A DNA stretch of 35,719 bases, from contig JADIMV010000040.1 in the NCBI GenBank assembly GCA_017694515.1, forward strand, positions 1 to 35,719, read 5' to 3'. Below the pieces are notes generated by a model. It searched no databases, had not been told where the DNA came from, and worked only from the letters and a program-made list of their open reading frames with translations. The DNA comes from Candidatus Aphodosoma intestinipullorum. GTDB lineage: Bacteria > Bacteroidota > Bacteroidia > Bacteroidales > Paludibacteraceae. Position numbers and translations under genes: made by a program. Positions 7,224-26,186 of this stretch are shown in pieces. Position 1 is the stretch's first letter, and the number at the start of each line of letters is the position of its first letter.

Positions 7224-8529
7224 TCCTGTCTATGGTCAGCTTCACCTCTTTTATGCGGCGGTCATCTACTGCCGTCACCTCGAATTTGCAGTTGCCGTAG
7301 GTAACGACTTCATGCTCCTCCGGTATCTCCCCCTTGATTTCAAGTATAAGCCCCGCCAGCGTATCGACCTCCCCGGTCATGTCGGCAAAAGGCGCGGGGT
7401 CTATATCCGTAGCCTTGAAAAAGTCCGTCAGCAGAATCTTGGCCTCGAACACATATGTGTTGTCGTCCACTTTCCTGTACTGCATCTCCTCTTGGTCATA
7501 CTCATCGCTGATGTCCCCCACGACCTCTTCGAGTATATCCTCCATCGTGACCATGCCCGATGTGCCGCCGAACTCGTCCACGACTATCGCTATGTGTATC
7601 TTGTTCTTCCTGAACTCCTGTAGTAGGTCATCTATCTTCTTCGTCTCCGGCACGAAATATGCGGAGCGTATAAGCGTCTGCCACTTGAAGTTATCTCCCT
7701 TACCGAGATGCGGGATAAGGTCCTTCGCATAGAGTATGCCGCGTATGTCGTCGTATGTGTTGGCCAGCACCGGCATACGCGAATACTCATGCTCCACGAT
7801 GCAGTCCACCACCTTGTCGAACGTATCGTTTATATCTACGGTCACCATATCGAGACGCGAGGTCATGACCCCCGCCGCCGTGATATTGCCGAAGTGTACT
7901 ATGCCCTTCAGTATGTCGGCGTCCTCCTCTATGCTGTCCGACGTAAGCTCCAGAGCCTGTGAAAGGTCGTCGATTGATATGTTGCTGTTATGCTTGTGCT
8001 TGGAGAGCTGTCTGTTGACTATGTTCGTTGAGCCGACGAGCAGTTTCGTGAACGGCCTCAGCACCTTGCCCGTCCTCTTCAGTGCGCCTGCCGCCCGGCG
8101 GCACATCCGCAACGGGTTCTGCGAGGCGAAGATTTTAGGCATGATTTCCCCGAATAGCAACAGGAGGAATGTGATGATGACCGTCTGTATGAGGAAGCCC
8201 AGCCACGGGGCATTCGAGAAGTCGAACGTCAGGTTGAGGCACAATGTGGAGAGCATGACTATCGCCACATTGACGAAGTTGTTGGTTATCAGTATTGTCC
8301 CCAGCAGATGCTCAGGCTCTTTGCGCAGCTCCCTGATATTGTTGCCCACGGACGAACTGTCGGCTTCTATTTCATTGAGGTCTTGCGGAGAGAGGGAGAA
8401 GAATGCCACTTCGGAGGCCGAGACGAATGCGGAGACGCAAAGCAGCAATATGACGAACACTAACGACACGACTGCCTCCCACGTGAACGGAAGGACTATT
8501 ATAAGATCAGATAATGGGTTGGGGTCCAA
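7195..8529 (-). CDS. gldE: GldE-type CNNM/CBS/CorC-HlyC domain membrane protein
   Basis: 444 aa; N-terminal TM domain, CBS region ([13 protein letters not shown]...), [25 protein letters not shown]; position between ssb and gldD. Confidence 0.92.
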
Positions 8530-8556
8530 ACTGTTGTGGTTTAATTAAACAATGCG

Positions 8557-8577
8557 GGGACGGATGTTTTCCGTCCC
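8557..8577 (-). promoter_or_regulatory. Hairpin at the predicted 5' end of the gldE leader
   Basis: GGGACGGA/TCCGTCCC 8-bp stem with 5-nt loop, just downstream (minus strand) of TATATTTG at 8580-8587. Confidence 0.45.
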
Positions 8578-8653
8578 TGCAAATATAGGGCATTTTTATC
8601 TAAACAGGAAATATCAGCCGGACATTTTTACATCCGCTGCCACCTCCCCCTTT

Positions 8654-9184
8654 TCAGAACGGCAGGTCGTCGGCCTTATCCTCCCCGTAGGGCGCATTGT
8701 CGTATGGCTCGGCATTGATGGCCGGCGACTGCGGCTGTACGAACGGCGCAGGCTGCTGATACTGTGGCTGCTGATATTGTGGCTGCGCCTGCTGCCATCC
8801 GCCCTGCTGCTGTTGCGGCTGCGGTGCGCCCGCTGGCTGTGCCTGCTGGTCGCGGCGGCCGAGCATCTGCATATCGTCCACATATATCTCCGTCACATAG
8901 CGGCGCACGCCCGTCTTGTCGTCATACGTCCGGGTACGTATCTTGCCCTCCACATACAGCTGCGAGCCCTTCTTCACATACTTCTCCACTGTCGCCGCCA
9001 GACCGTAGCGGAAAACGAGGTTGTGCCACTCCGTACGCTCCGGCACCTGTGTACCGTTCTGTAGCGTATAGCCGCGCTCCGTCGTGGCCAGTCTGACATT
9101 GGCCACACGGTTATTGTTGTCGAAATAGCGCACATCGGGGTCTGCCCCGACATTGCCTACCAGAATCACCTTGTTTACTGACAT
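8654..9184 (-). CDS. ssb: Single-stranded DNA-binding protein
   Basis: 176 aa; MSVNKVILVGNVGADPDVRY OB fold start, Q/P-rich linker, acidic C-terminal tip DDLPF. Confidence 0.96.
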   Translation of the reverse strand: MSVNKVILVGNVGADPDVRYFDNNNRVANVRLATTERGYTLQNGTQVPERTEWHNLVFRYGLAATVEKYVKKGSQLYVEGKIRTRTYDDKTGVRRYVTEIYVDDMQMLGRRDQQAQPAGAPQPQQQQGGWQQAQPQYQQPQYQQPAPFVQPQSPAINAEPYDNAPYGEDKADDLPF

Positions 9185-9383
9185 AATCTTATGATGTTTT
9201 TATTACATTTCCCGCAATGCGGGACTCGCCTCCCGCGCCCCTTCATTACGGACTTCAAAGTAAGTTCTATTTTTTCAATTATGCAATAGTCCCACATGAA
9301 TTTACCGTAGTCCTCAAACAAAAAAACGGCAAGAGACTTGTCGTCCCTATGCCGCTAAGACCTTACAATGCGCAGACGGCGCA

Positions 9384-9665
9384 TTATAAATCTATATCTA
9401 TGTCTATATCGGGCAGGTTCTTGGCCAGACAGTCAGCCTCGCTGAGATTTCCCGCGCGCTTCTTGGTAACCTTAACCCCAAGTTGCTCGGCCAACTCATC
9501 CACCTTAGTATTGATGTCATTCTTACTGCAATAGACATAGTTTGTAACCGTCGTATTGTTTGTTTTCCACGTCATCTCCCAGCAATGTGGCTTGTCCGGA
9601 TCGCACGACGTAAACATCACGGCAGTCATGCAGACCGCCATCAAAGACAAAACTAATTTCTTCAT
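9384..9665 (-). CDS. Small putative lipoprotein
   Basis: 93 aa; signal peptide with lipobox MAVCMTAVMFTSC; five-cysteine arrangement; C-terminal DIDIDIDL; good promoter upstream. Confidence 0.7.
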   Translation of the reverse strand: MKKLVLSLMAVCMTAVMFTSCDPDKPHCWEMTWKTNNTTVTNYVYCSKNDINTKVDELAEQLGVKVTKKRAGNLSEADCLAKNLPDIDIDIDL

Positions 9666-9986: not shown

Positions 9987-10055
9987 GTTAAAAACACGTA
10001 CTCTCGCCGAAGCTCCTCCGTAGGCTCTCCGAAGCCCCTCCCGACCCTCTCAAGA
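9987..10055 (+). repeat. Dispersed repeat copy B
   Basis: GTTAAAAACACGTACTCTCGCCGAAGCTCCTCCGTAGGCTCTCCGAAGCCCCTCCCGACCCTCTC. Confidence 0.8.
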
Positions 10056-10152: not shown

Positions 10153-10893
10153 ATGGAACTTACGATTGACATCGGCAACAGTTATACCAAGTTCTGCATT
10201 TTCGATAATGACGCTATAACCTTCAACCTCATTACCAAAGATGTGACAGAAGAACTGTTGGCGGGCATAACGGGAAGGCACACGATATCCCATGCCATAA
10301 TATCATCTGTGACAGACAATAAAAAACATATCGGCGCGTTCTTGGAACATAGGGGCATACCCGTGCTGACGGTCACACACACCACGGCCATTCCGATTCG
10401 TAACTGCTACGGCACACCGGAAACCCTCGGCATGGACCGGCTCTCGGCCGCCGTAGGCGCGTACAGGCTCAGGCCGGGAGAAGCCTCGCTCATCATAGAC
10501 ATAGGAACGTGCATCACATACGATGTCATCGACGAGACAGGCTCTTTCCTCGGAGGCAACATTGCCCCGGGCTACAAGATGCGGCTCGACGCTATGCACG
10601 CTTTCACAGACAAGCTGCCCGACGTGCCCCCATGCGACATACCGGACTACCGCATAGGCCGCAGCACGACGGAAGCCATGAAAGCCGGGGCTTACAACGG
10701 CATCGTCTACGAGGCGGAAGGCATGGTTGCCTACCTCCGTGGCAGATACGGACGGCTCAATGTGTTCCTGACAGGAGGCGGGGCGGCATATTTCGCACAG
10801 AACATCGGATGCGGAAAAATTGCTGAGCCGAACCTTATACATATAGGCCTGAACGAGATATTAAGATACAACCTGAAGCTGACAACGGAATAA
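10153..10893 (+). CDS. coaX: Type III pantothenate kinase
   Basis: Starts MELTIDIGNSYTKFCIFD; GMDRLSAAVGAY, IIDIGTCITYDVID, GGNIAPGYKMR. The ORF track start at 10120 is an upstream in-frame TTG inside the promoter. Confidence 0.95.
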   Translation: MELTIDIGNSYTKFCIFDNDAITFNLITKDVTEELLAGITGRHTISHAIISSVTDNKKHIGAFLEHRGIPVLTVTHTTAIPIRNCYGTPETLGMDRLSAAVGAYRLRPGEASLIIDIGTCITYDVIDETGSFLGGNIAPGYKMRLDAMHAFTDKLPDVPPCDIPDYRIGRSTTEAMKAGAYNGIVYEAEGMVAYLRGRYGRLNVFLTGGGAAYFAQNIGCGKIAEPNLIHIGLNEILRYNLKLTTE

Positions 10894-12164
10894 TGAACAA
10901 AGTCCAGAACCTTATTATATTAGTTCTGACGGTAGTCATCTCAATGACGGCCGCCGGCATCGCCGCGCAGAACAACACCAACTCGCCATACACGCGGTAC
11001 GGCTATGGACAACTGCAGGACCAGGGCTTCTCCGTAAGCCAGTCGATGGGCGGAATATCATACGGACTGCGGAGCAATGCGACCATCAACCCCGGCAACC
11101 CGGCCTCATACAGCGCGATAGACAGCACAAGTTTCCTCTTCGAGTTCAGCGCATCGGGACTGCTCTCGTCATTCTCGAGCGGCGGCGCGACAAGGAACAC
11201 CTTCACGGGCAATCTCGACTACATAGCCCTTCAGGTTCCCGTCACGAAATGGATGGGGCTCAGCGCGGGAGTCATACCCTTCTCTTTCGTGGGATACAAC
11301 TACAACTTCAACGACTCGGTGAAAAACGCCGGAGGCGAGACCGACCACGGCTACACTGGCTACACGCAGGCATTCAACGGTAAAGGCGGCATCAGCCAGG
11401 TATACCTCGGCCTCGCGTTCGACCTCTTCGACCACCTCTCGCTGGGCGCGAACGCATACTATATGTTCGGCGACATCACCCACTACCGCACACTCGCGTT
11501 CGAATCGACAGACATACTGGCCAACAGCACAGTAAGCACATCCGAACTATATATCAGCAGCTTCAATGCACGCTTCGGACTCCAATACCACGAGACCGTC
11601 GGAGACAAACACGCGTTCACCATAGGCGCGGTTTACGAGTTCAAGTCCCCTCTCGGAGGTAAGCTGACCGAATCGACATCGGGCGTTGACACCGTGACCA
11701 CATCGTCCGTAGAGTCATTCGAACTGCCCGACACATACGGCGGCGGATTCACATACACATACGACGGACGATTCACCATAGGTGCCGACGCTACCTACCA
11801 GGCCTTCTCCTCGGCGAAATACTACGGCGTGACCGACAGCCTCAGCAACAGGCTCAAACTTTCCCTCGGCGCGGAGTACGTCAACGACCCGCGTGGACAC
11901 AGATACGTGGACCGGATGCACTGGCGTCTCGGCGCAAGCTACTCCGACTCATACGTCAGGGTAAACGGCGCGACGGCAAAGGATTTCGCCGTGACGTTAG
12001 GAATCGGACTGCCGCTGCGCAACTCGAAGACAATGATAAACTTTGACCTCAAATACGGCAACATAGGCGGGGCGAATCAGGCTCTGCTGAACGAGCAGTA
12101 TGTCCAGCTGGGCATCAACGTGGCATTAAACGAAACATGGTTTGTGAGGTCTAAGGTAAGATAG
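10893..12164 (+). CDS. Outer membrane beta-barrel protein
   Basis: 423 aa; signal peptide; NTNSPYTRYGYGQLQDQGF start; beta-barrel-like alternation; TAATG overlap with coaX. Confidence 0.85.
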   Translation: MNKVQNLIILVLTVVISMTAAGIAAQNNTNSPYTRYGYGQLQDQGFSVSQSMGGISYGLRSNATINPGNPASYSAIDSTSFLFEFSASGLLSSFSSGGATRNTFTGNLDYIALQVPVTKWMGLSAGVIPFSFVGYNYNFNDSVKNAGGETDHGYTGYTQAFNGKGGISQVYLGLAFDLFDHLSLGANAYYMFGDITHYRTLAFESTDILANSTVSTSELYISSFNARFGLQYHETVGDKHAFTIGAVYEFKSPLGGKLTESTSGVDTVTTSSVESFELPDTYGGGFTYTYDGRFTIGADATYQAFSSAKYYGVTDSLSNRLKLSLGAEYVNDPRGHRYVDRMHWRLGASYSDSYVRVNGATAKDFAVTLGIGLPLRNSKTMINFDLKYGNIGGANQALLNEQYVQLGINVALNETWFVRSKVR

Positions 12165-22783: not shown

Positions 22784-22850
22784 GTTAAAAACACGTACTC
22801 TCGCTGAAGTCCTTAGCCAGCCCCTCCGAAGCCTCACCGAAGCCCCTCAC
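22784..22850 (+). repeat. Dispersed repeat copy C
   Basis: GTTAAAAACACGTACTCTCGCTGAAGTCCTTAGCCAGCCCCTCCGAAGCCTCACCGAAGCCCCTCACC. Confidence 0.8.
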
Positions 22851-22889
22851 CATCCGTAAAGCCGGCATCCGCCTTGTTCCGTCGCACTT

Positions 22890-23002
22890 TCACCCTTTTG
22901 GGTGATTGCAACTGTATCACATATGACGTATATTTGCAAGCGGGTAACAGTTGTTGCCACCCGTGCCGATGCATTACGGCAATCGGATTTTCATTATCTT
23001 TG
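22890..23002 (+). promoter_or_regulatory. Regulatory region of the rSAM operon: two TAnnTTTG elements with inverted repeats
   Basis: TCACCCttttGGGTGA (22890-22905); TTG-20-TATATTTG (22906-22936); CGGGT...ACCCG (22941-22963); second TATCTTTG (22995-23002). Confidence 0.45.
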
Positions 23003-23043
23003 CAAGGTACAAACTATAACATTGACCCATAAACCTCTAAGCC

Positions 23044-24111
23044 ATGAAACATTTCTTGACTGCACTCTGTACCCTACTCTTCTGGGTACAGGGTATTCAC
23101 AGCACCGTACTCACCACCCGCATAGACGAGCGCATAGAACTCGCCTCCTACCTCAGCAGATATGTCGGCTTTGACCGCGATCTCCCTATCGATGGCTACT
23201 ATTTCAACTATGTCGATCGGCAGTTCGTCTCCCGTACAAAGGGACTTCTTCTTTCTGACAACATATACTATTTTATGGCCTCCGGTTATGAGATCGACCG
23301 TGAACTGCTGTTGTCCGCCGCGCTCACATGGAAAATCGACAGTGGCCACATAGTGCAGGATGCGGATAAGACCAACAGGATGAGACAGACATGGCCTGCC
23401 AAAGAGTACGATGCCCTGATGGGGTTCATAGACCAGTTCTACCGCCAGACACGCTTCGGCGAATTCTTCACGGCGCAGAAGCCGCTCTACGACAAGGCCA
23501 AGGAGCTGTATGACAGTATGGCGCTTTCCGGTTTCCACACCGGTTTCCTCGACTCCATCACCTCCGCCCCTGCCGACAGCATCACTCTCTATATCTCACT
23601 GCTCAGCTACAAGGGCAACATACCTTTGCTCGCGTCCGGTGCAGTAGTAGTCAACGGTTTCATGATCCATCAGCCCCCCAAGCCTGAAAATGTCGGCTTC
23701 TCTCCCGACGCGCTGTGGATAGACGGACTTTCCGGTGACGACGTGATATATCCGCTTCTCTGCTCCCTATCTGAACTCATCCTTTACGGCGGAGCTGACA
23801 CACAGCGCACCATATCTCGCACGGCTATGGAGTACTACAAGTCGGCCATGTACCTCTTCGACAGGGCGCACGTCTCCCCCGAGGATATTATACCCCGTCA
23901 GATGTCGCAGCTTGCCGCCCTCGCCTACCTCGAGATGTATCATGCGGACATATTGGACTTCGCCATCATCGGTGACACCCGAAGGGGATTTTTCTGGGAA
24001 AACGAACTTTACAGGCGCATGAAAAAGCTCCGCTCTGCGGACAACTTTGCCGACAAACCGTTCAAAGATATGATGAACAGCCTATTATACGAACTCAAGA
24101 CCTTACTATGA
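23044..24111 (+). CDS. Secreted protein of unknown function (tentatively DUF4932-like)
   Basis: 355 aa; signal peptide MKHFLTALCTLLFWVQGIHS; family assignment from general appearance only; ATGA overlap with the next gene. Confidence 0.8.
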   Translation: MKHFLTALCTLLFWVQGIHSTVLTTRIDERIELASYLSRYVGFDRDLPIDGYYFNYVDRQFVSRTKGLLLSDNIYYFMASGYEIDRELLLSAALTWKIDSGHIVQDADKTNRMRQTWPAKEYDALMGFIDQFYRQTRFGEFFTAQKPLYDKAKELYDSMALSGFHTGFLDSITSAPADSITLYISLLSYKGNIPLLASGAVVVNGFMIHQPPKPENVGFSPDALWIDGLSGDDVIYPLLCSLSELILYGGADTQRTISRTAMEYYKSAMYLFDRAHVSPEDIIPRQMSQLAALAYLEMYHADILDFAIIGDTRRGFFWENELYRRMKKLRSADNFADKPFKDMMNSLLYELKTLL

Positions 24112-25440
24112 TACTTTCACATTATAACTTTCCTCTCGAATACGATGGGGGCTATTACATATACAATGCGCTGTCTAATTCGTTGGTAGACATCGATCAG
24201 GACACGTATTCCGTCTTGTCATCTGAAAAAAATCAGAGCGGAGAGTTCGATACTGCAAAACTTGACGGTGAGACCGTCGAAGCTCTGCGCAAAAACAGTA
24301 TGCTGACCACCAGCTATGAAGATGAGTTCCTTATATACAAATCTATCATAAGCAGAGTCCGGGTCGAACGGGACACGATGCACATAACCATCGCCCCTAC
24401 AATGGATTGCCACTTCAATTGCCATTATTGCTTTGAAAAATTCAAACGACCCGGAAACATCTCAGAAGAGATGATGGATCGCATCATTAAATTCATATCT
24501 GGGAAAAAGGAAGTCAAGGCGTTAAGATTAACATGGTTCGGGGGGAGAGCCATTAATGGCCATACATGAAATAGAGACATTCTATGATAAGCTGAAAGCC
24601 CATCTGTCAGATATCCAGTTCAGTTCAAACATCATCACTACCGCATATGATGTGACAGAAGAGACGGTTCGCATATTAAAGAAAGTCCAGATAACATCAA
24701 TGCAGATTACAATTGATGGAATGAAAGAGACCCACAACAAAATAAAACGCATTGATGGAGTCGATGTCTTTGAACAGATCATGAAAAACATCGAATTACT
24801 CAACGATGAATACCCCGAATTGCATATAGTACTACGCGTAAATTTGACCAAAGCCAATGCCCTCGAATATCCCAAGCTAGTGGATTCTATATTCGAAAGA
24901 TTCAAGGGAAGAAAAAACATAAATCCCGCACCTGCATTTATTCTTGAAAAGGATATCCATATATGCAACGAGTGCAATACAGGTCTTTTCAATCATAAAG
25001 AGCGTTCCGCTTTTATATTGGATTTATACCATCATGGCTATGATAGCCCTTACGCAAGATACCCTAATAAAGTAATGGCCGAATGTGCCATACGCAATGA
25101 TTTAGCTGTTGCCTTTGACCCACGGGGATATGTATACAAATGTTGGGAGGTTATAGGTGATGAATCATACGCCATAGGCAAGATTGGAGACGACGGACGG
25201 ATAGTGGAGTTCAATCAGCTTGTCTATAACAGACAGATGTACGGTGCTGACCCTCTCGAAGATCCCGTATGCCGGAAATGCAGATACTTGCCTATATGCA
25301 ATGGCGGTTGCCCTATTCACCGTATCCAGAATAAATTTGAAAAATGCAGGAATAATTACTGTTCCCACTACAAAGGCTACTTGGAAGAGTTTCTGAAAAT
25401 ACATATCGCACGCTCCAAACGTGACAGATCCGACAAATGA
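24108..25440 (+). pseudogene. Radical SAM/SPASM domain enzyme, split by a +1 frameshift at ~24540-24545
   Basis: Part 1 (24108-24569) has CHFNCHYC (CxxxCxxC) and ends LTWFGGRAINGHT*; part 2 (ORF from 24556) resumes as EPLMAIHEIETFYDKL and carries the SPASM cysteines CRKCRYLPICNGGCP...C...C. Removing one G from GGGGGG restores WFGGEPLM. Could be an assembly error or phase variation rather than a true pseudogene. Confidence 0.85.
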
Positions 25441-26186
25441 CAGACGGCTTACACATTAAGAACATGGACAACCACTCGAAACAAACCCCATCTGACTTTC
25501 CCATTGAGACCGTTCTGGACGCTTTAAGCATGGGACTCTACCAGCGTTTCATCTTGTTGGATTACGCCAACGACAGGCTTCTCTACATCTCCGACAGCTT
25601 TTCCTGCATATGCGGGAAATCAAGGGAAGAGCTGTACAGCGTGCCTGCCATAAACTTTCTGCACAGCCTCCGCCCCGCCTCCGAAAACGAAAGGCTCATG
25701 GAAATTGTAGAGCAAATAAATGCACTGGTCAGCGGGACAGAAGGCTTGTCCCCGGCTGCACTCACACTGTCGGTAGACATGAACGTCCTACGGGCTGACG
25801 GAACTATATGCCTGACCAACCACCAGTACATCCCCCTCTCCTTCTCCCCAGACGGGAAAACGCTGTCCAAACTCCTGATAATACTCTCGTTGCCGACATC
25901 GGCCTTTGCGTTTGATAAAATCATCGTCTCCGACAGGCTGCACGGCATGATCTACCGGCTGACGGCCGACCGTCAATGGCAATGCAAATCCGCACAGCAG
26001 TACACCGACAGGGAATTACAGATATTGCGGTTGGCGGCCATCGGCAAAACCCGCAAAGAAGTAGCGGAAATCCTGTGCCGCTCAGAGGAAACAATTAAAA
26101 CTACCAGTGCCGGACTGATGAAAAAGACAGGTTCTAAAAACATCATAGAAGCCCTTTGCAATGCCATTCATCTCAGGCTCATCTGA
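25437..26186 (+). CDS. PAS-like sensor / LuxR-family transcriptional regulator
   Basis: 249 aa; C-terminal HTH YTDRELQILRLAAIGKTRKEVAEILCRSEETIKTTSAGLMKKTGSKNIIEAL; N-terminal LLDYANDRLLYISDSFSCICGKSREEL PAS-like; ATGA overlap with rSAM. Confidence 0.85.
   Translation: MTDGLHIKNMDNHSKQTPSDFPIETVLDALSMGLYQRFILLDYANDRLLYISDSFSCICGKSREELYSVPAINFLHSLRPASENERLMEIVEQINALVSGTEGLSPAALTLSVDMNVLRADGTICLTNHQYIPLSFSPDGKTLSKLLIILSLPTSAFAFDKIIVSDRLHGMIYRLTADRQWQCKSAQQYTDRELQILRLAAIGKTRKEVAEILCRSEETIKTTSAGLMKKTGSKNIIEALCNAIHLRLI

Follow-up and report, generated by a model that had tools for sequence, protein, structure and literature searches.

A DUF4932, radical SAM/SPASM and LuxR gene trio of Candidatus Aphodosoma intestinipullorum as the probable remnant of a Bacteroidales RiPP cluster

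Analysis of the window (the whole stretch of 35,719 nucleotides) revealed three overlapping genes that are probably an orphaned and eroding remnant of a Bacteroidales RiPP cluster. Judging from the gene orders of the relatives, the complete form of this cluster is a GG-leader Cys-rich precursor, a DUF4932 protein, a SPASM radical SAM (rSAM) enzyme, a C39-peptidase ABC exporter and an HlyD-type partner, sometimes with a PAS-LuxR regulator.

Layout of the locus and its promoter

The window contig (C154) belongs to a Bacteroidales assembly of 2.44 Mb in 162 contigs that is 85% complete. The features of the locus are as follows.

22906..22936, + strand: predicted Bacteroidota-type promoter, TTG-N20-TATATTTG, exact pattern match
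22995-23003: second -7-like box TATCTTTGC, sequence pattern
23044..24111, + strand: DUF4932 gene, 355 aa, PF16286 match
24108..24569, + strand: rSAM/SPASM gene, first frame, 153 aa; N-terminal recognition-type region and radical-SAM CX3CX2C motif
24541..24546, + strand: G6 run at the +1 frame break, inside the WFGGEP motif
24556..25440, + strand: rSAM/SPASM gene, second frame, 294 aa counted from the first ATG, with homology from 24541; remaining barrel and SPASM
25437..26186, + strand: PAS-LuxR transcription regulator, 249 aa; GerE and PAS_9 matches

The sequence-only reading had proposed a translationally coupled unit of a secreted protein, a peptide-maturase-type rSAM enzyme and a PAS-LuxR regulator. 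This proposal was borne out by the SPASM identity of the middle gene and by the 4-nt ATGA overlaps, both of which are present (24108-24111 and 25437-25440). The rSAM gene is also AT-rich relative to its neighbours, as the same reading had it, with a GC content of 41-43% (0.429 and 0.405 for the two parts) against 51-63% (DUF4932 0.525, LuxR 0.51 and IspG 0.63). Analysis of the third gene product found an LuxR/GerE HTH (GerE, 37.5 bits) and a PAS-like domain (PAS_9, 20.8 bits, under gathering), in agreement with the PAS-LuxR coding unit described earlier.

The predicted promoter upstream of the operon is an exact TTG-N20-TANNTTTG match. The -33/-7 pattern, with one mismatch allowed, is enriched in the window, with 22 occurrences against a mean of 6.7 in shuffles. 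The window also carries, at 9993-10005 and 22790-22802, a 14-mer AACACGTACTCTCG that occurs in 182 copies in the assembly (98 forward and 84 reverse; 0 for the reversed control). These copies are sometimes paired in inverted orientation about 55 bp apart, and the 14-mer is an abundant dispersed intergenic palindromic element.

The split radical SAM gene and the degenerate DUF4932 protein

The middle gene product was identified as a SPASM/rSAM protein (TIGR04085, 58.7 bits against a cut-off of 27), as expected; however, it is not encoded by the single open reading frame assumed in the sequence-only reading. Two frames, 24108-24569 and 24556-25440, share a 14-nt overlap with an ATG at 24556, and the reading frame moves by +1 at 'ttcggggggagagcc' (around 24541-24546), inside the WFGGEP (GGEP) motif. 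This motif is uninterrupted in the intact relatives, which have no G6 run there. The downstream frame was open in 0 of 2000 shuffles and the split of the gene across frames is therefore not due to chance. Both halves align to one 446-aa homologue across its length, and the second frame is 55-56% identical to an intact paralogue on contig C64 of the same genome. A single intact reading frame for the whole enzyme was not found in the present assembly.

The radical SAM motif CX3CX2C is present in the first frame as CHFNCHYC, with three cysteines that are invariant across the clade, and the SPASM region of the second frame keeps all seven conserved C-terminal cysteines, giving 10/10 conserved cysteines for the two halves. 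Family-invariant positions are kept at 81% and 89% in the halves, within or near the family range. Retention of all radical-SAM and SPASM cysteines suggests that the break is either recent or a sequencing error, and the frameshift, seen in one assembly, is either a mutation or a sequencing error; no same-species strains were available for comparison among the genomes searched. Programmed frameshifting was rejected, as no signal of structured RNA was detected at the frame break (z 0.30). Synonymous sites were saturated when dN/dS estimation was attempted. Overall, either the window maturase was under constraint until recently or the frameshift is a sequencing error.

Comparison with characterised enzymes revealed that the rSAM halves and the intact paralogue have their highest family scores with the RiPP maturases CefB (NF038107), TIGR04463 and Clo7bot (TIGR04334), with which they share the full-length architecture. 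The window rSAM scores far under the equivalog cut-offs of these three maturases, as does the intact paralogue (170 vs 600 for CefB, 193 vs 525 for TIGR04463 and 169 vs 600 for Clo7bot). Among solved structures, CteB (PDB 5WGG), a SPASM thioether-forming peptide maturase, is closest to the rSAM family profile (E 1.5e-23, 86.5 bits, positions 22-405 of 447), although the similarity is low and the substrates are unrelated.

The upstream gene product matches DUF4932 (PF16286, 39.5 bits against a gathering threshold of 28.7) over profile positions 2-163 of 332 only. Its description as a secreted-type protein agrees with an apparent N-terminal signal peptide, recognised by inspection. The relatives' counterpart of this co-encoded protein is a putative zinc metallopeptidase of the DUF4932 family, in which the HExxH...E residues (H235, E236, H239 and E281; L014 protein numbering, Met at 11635) are invariant among seven DUF4932 partners. 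The gluzincin-like combination of HExxH and a downstream Glu, found in all seven, is absent from the window protein, which carries Y236, P237, C240 and R285 at these positions (Y-P-x-x-C...R; codons at 23749-23761 and 23896), so that all zinc ligands are gone. Alignments further revealed that its C-terminal Ig-like domain is missing, and that the partner family has no conserved cysteine. Only 0.45 of the family-invariant columns are kept, compared with 0.70-0.97 in active-type proteins. The protease partner in the window has thus drifted far, while the maturase stayed constrained until recently or up to the present.

Fold searches gave no match for the DUF4932 peptidase domain. The model of the L050 protein (pLDDT 83.7) matched mainly via its C-terminal Ig-like/CopC-like part, which dominated the search, and the model of the window protein (pLDDT 65.6) gave no significant fold match. 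Full-length DUF4932 genes without HExxH were also found (L048b and L066), and loss of the motif therefore need not signal decay. L066, at 8088-9548 of its locus on contig C58, is the third DUF4932 gene of the window's own genome and stands alone. In L048 (1304-5665), the rSAM gene has a DUF4932 gene on either side, one with HExxH and one without it, which suggests an active/pseudoenzyme pair.

Relatives of the locus and the search for a precursor

Four close loci (L048-L051) emerged when 85,462 species genomes were scanned, and L068, L131, L129 and L130 came from surveys across the order. DUF4932 lies directly upstream of the rSAM gene in 8/8 clade loci for which the upstream side was available, the window included. 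Homologues without both neighbours, or a housekeeping rSAM family, had been named as evidence against the proposed unit; this case did not arise, since DUF4932 is present in all eight of these loci. The ATGA overlap between DUF4932 and rSAM recurs in L048, L051 and L068. Six relatives have a Cys-rich GG-leader precursor upstream of DUF4932, and the six precursors share the leader "KFxIIEE...GG" with K6, F7, E11, E12, M21, G26 and G27 invariant (L014 numbering). Downstream of the rSAM gene, every locus whose contig extends far enough has a C39-peptidase ABC exporter (L014, L048, L049, L050, L068 and L131, and also L129, where it lies at a contig end); in L050 the reading frame of the exporter is cut short. 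With precursor, DUF4932 and exporter present in the clade loci, the window unit is of the kind of a GG-leader RiPP module.

Damaged rSAM genes were observed in two other relatives. In L131 (G337; 1521-2858) the gene has two in-frame stops and lies between an intact DUF4932 gene and an intact C39 exporter gene. In L130 (G179; 109-1255) the N-terminus and the body of the gene are on opposite strands at the contig end, as a result of either an inversion or a chimeric assembly.

The Merdivivens cluster L048 has the order precursor, DUF4932, rSAM, second DUF4932, ABC exporter, HlyD and PAS-LuxR. Its regulator shows weak similarity to the window PAS-LuxR along the full length (21%, pairwise E 1e-8). 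The suggestion that the LuxR regulator could belong to the system is consistent with this, and on account of the full-length similarity the third gene of the window plausibly was once part of such a cluster.

The window genome itself has a second, intact rSAM copy on contig C64 (L014), with 56% identity to the window rSAM. The C64 order is LanC-like, M16-like peptidase, lantibiotic dehydratase (LanB; PF04738, 447 bits), thiopeptide-type protein (TIGR03891), TPR-type regulator (named by inspection), precursor, DUF4932, rSAM and C39-peptidase ABC exporter. The precursor, 97 aa long, is Cys-rich and carries a GG leader, and the DUF4932 protein has HELTH; the cluster is complete and adjoins the lanthipeptide genes. 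Upstream of the C64 precursor, a gene for a small secreted protein (L014 10527-10940) is apparently broken by an in-frame TAG near 10848.

While a peptide substrate is encoded nearby in six relatives, none is encoded in the window, where the leader region holds no precursor-like open reading frame, as the sequence-only reading had stated. The only Cys-rich frame in this region, at 22874-23032 (52 aa, TTG start), was considered as precursor and rejected because it has no GG leader and spans promoter elements. The exporter is absent from the window copy as well. A search of the genome with leader-only and full precursor profiles found the C64 precursor alone, with no second leader homologue in the assembly; the option of a precursor encoded elsewhere thus has one candidate. 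The relatives' precursors do not reach the TIGR04149 cut-off of 25: two of the six score 16.0 and 14.6 bits, and the others have no score.

Phylogenetic analysis joined the window rSAM to G179 (support 86/86) and placed the C64 enzyme in a separate group with L048 and L068 (96/97). The window rSAM is therefore no fresh duplicate, and a recent in-genome duplication of the C64 maturase was ruled out. The rSAM gene is absent from the genus siblings. The nearest sibling (G001) has IspG followed by SerC in place of the trio, which indicates a rearranged or acquired site; a clean empty site was not found in the siblings, in which the trio is absent and the flanks are rearranged.

Interpretation and comparison with known clusters

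In the complete cluster, the rSAM enzyme would act in the cytosol, recognising the KFxIIEE leader and introducing cross-links into the Cys-rich core. Cleavage behind GG and export of the peptide would fall to the C39 transporter, and the periplasmic DUF4932 protein would trim the peptide or protect the producer. The window copy as assembled should yield no peptide, since the precursor and exporter are absent, the zinc site and C-terminal domain are lost and the rSAM gene is broken at the G6 run; the parts are gone, and loss of function would be the expected outcome. Against erosion stand an rSAM constraint near the family range, a promoter that looks intact and the open frames of LuxR and DUF4932.

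The rSAM constraint and the promoter, together with the conserved rSAM cysteines, would fit a functional orphan maturase pair, with the frameshift introduced in sequencing or assembly and the enzyme acting in trans. Its substrate would be the C64 precursor, the one with the right leader in the same genome, or a precursor encoded in the unassembled part of the genome (roughly 15%), given 85% completeness and 162 contigs. We consider this reading rather unlikely, as the C64 cluster has its own intact maturase, from which the window enzyme is separated in the tree, and the window DUF4932 has lost its catalytic residues and one domain. A related proposal, in which the dead DUF4932 is a binding or regulatory partner of a functional exporter-less pair and the rSAM enzyme, its production set by G6 slippage, modifies the precursor of the unlinked C64 cluster, would give one peptide two rSAM maturases; we see only a slim chance of this.

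The position of the break exactly at the G6 run, together with the 14-nt frame overlap and its ATG, would also be expected of a switchable or recoded enzyme, with phase-variable slippage or programmed frameshifting, so that a fraction of cells or of ribosomes yields intact rSAM, or with two coupled polypeptides that complement each other. This seems very improbable, since intact relatives do without the run at this motif, the RNA structure signal is absent and six bases are short for phase variation. The earlier suggestion that the rSAM enzyme modifies the co-encoded secreted protein, with LuxR feedback, draws on the translational coupling and conserved adjacency of both genes, but found no support and is scarcely credible: the relatives' partner is a putative metallopeptidase without a conserved cysteine, and the GG-leader Cys-rich peptide just upstream, with a C39 exporter alongside, is the obvious substrate. 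An orphaned and eroding cluster remnant is hence the reading that we favour.

Stool-metagenome clusters of LanB, rSAM-SPASM, thiopeptide-type, S41 and DUF4932 genes were reported in 2017 in one sentence, with DUF4932 as a putative metalloprotease (PMC5410138). The C64 cluster resembles that description, its rSAM/SPASM and DUF4932 genes adjoining those for LanB and a thiopeptide-type protein; an S41-like peptidase is additionally present in L049. The window copy differs from the clusters as described in that sentence: it lacks lanthipeptide genes, precursor and exporter, its DUF4932 is degenerate and its rSAM gene is broken. The sentence is silent on both the precursor leader and the overlap. 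A 2023 survey covered Bacteroidales RiPP clusters with rSAM and C39 (peptidase-containing) ABC exporters (PMC10352776). The window's relatives share with these the common order, GG-type leaders, SPASM maturase and C39 exporter, whereas the window has neither precursor nor exporter, and the main text of the survey mentions no DUFs, metalloprotease or LuxR. This study adds a leader family common to the precursors, the conservation of the gene overlap, the assignment of HExxH...E and the occurrence of degenerate forms.

The comparison ties DUF4932 to a defined RiPP module and to a testable zinc-site assignment, and the leader family of the relatives' precursors is only grazed by NCBIfam models. 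The window copy, with its precursor and exporter absent, its protease partner degenerate and its maturase broken, suggests a route by which such clusters may be lost.
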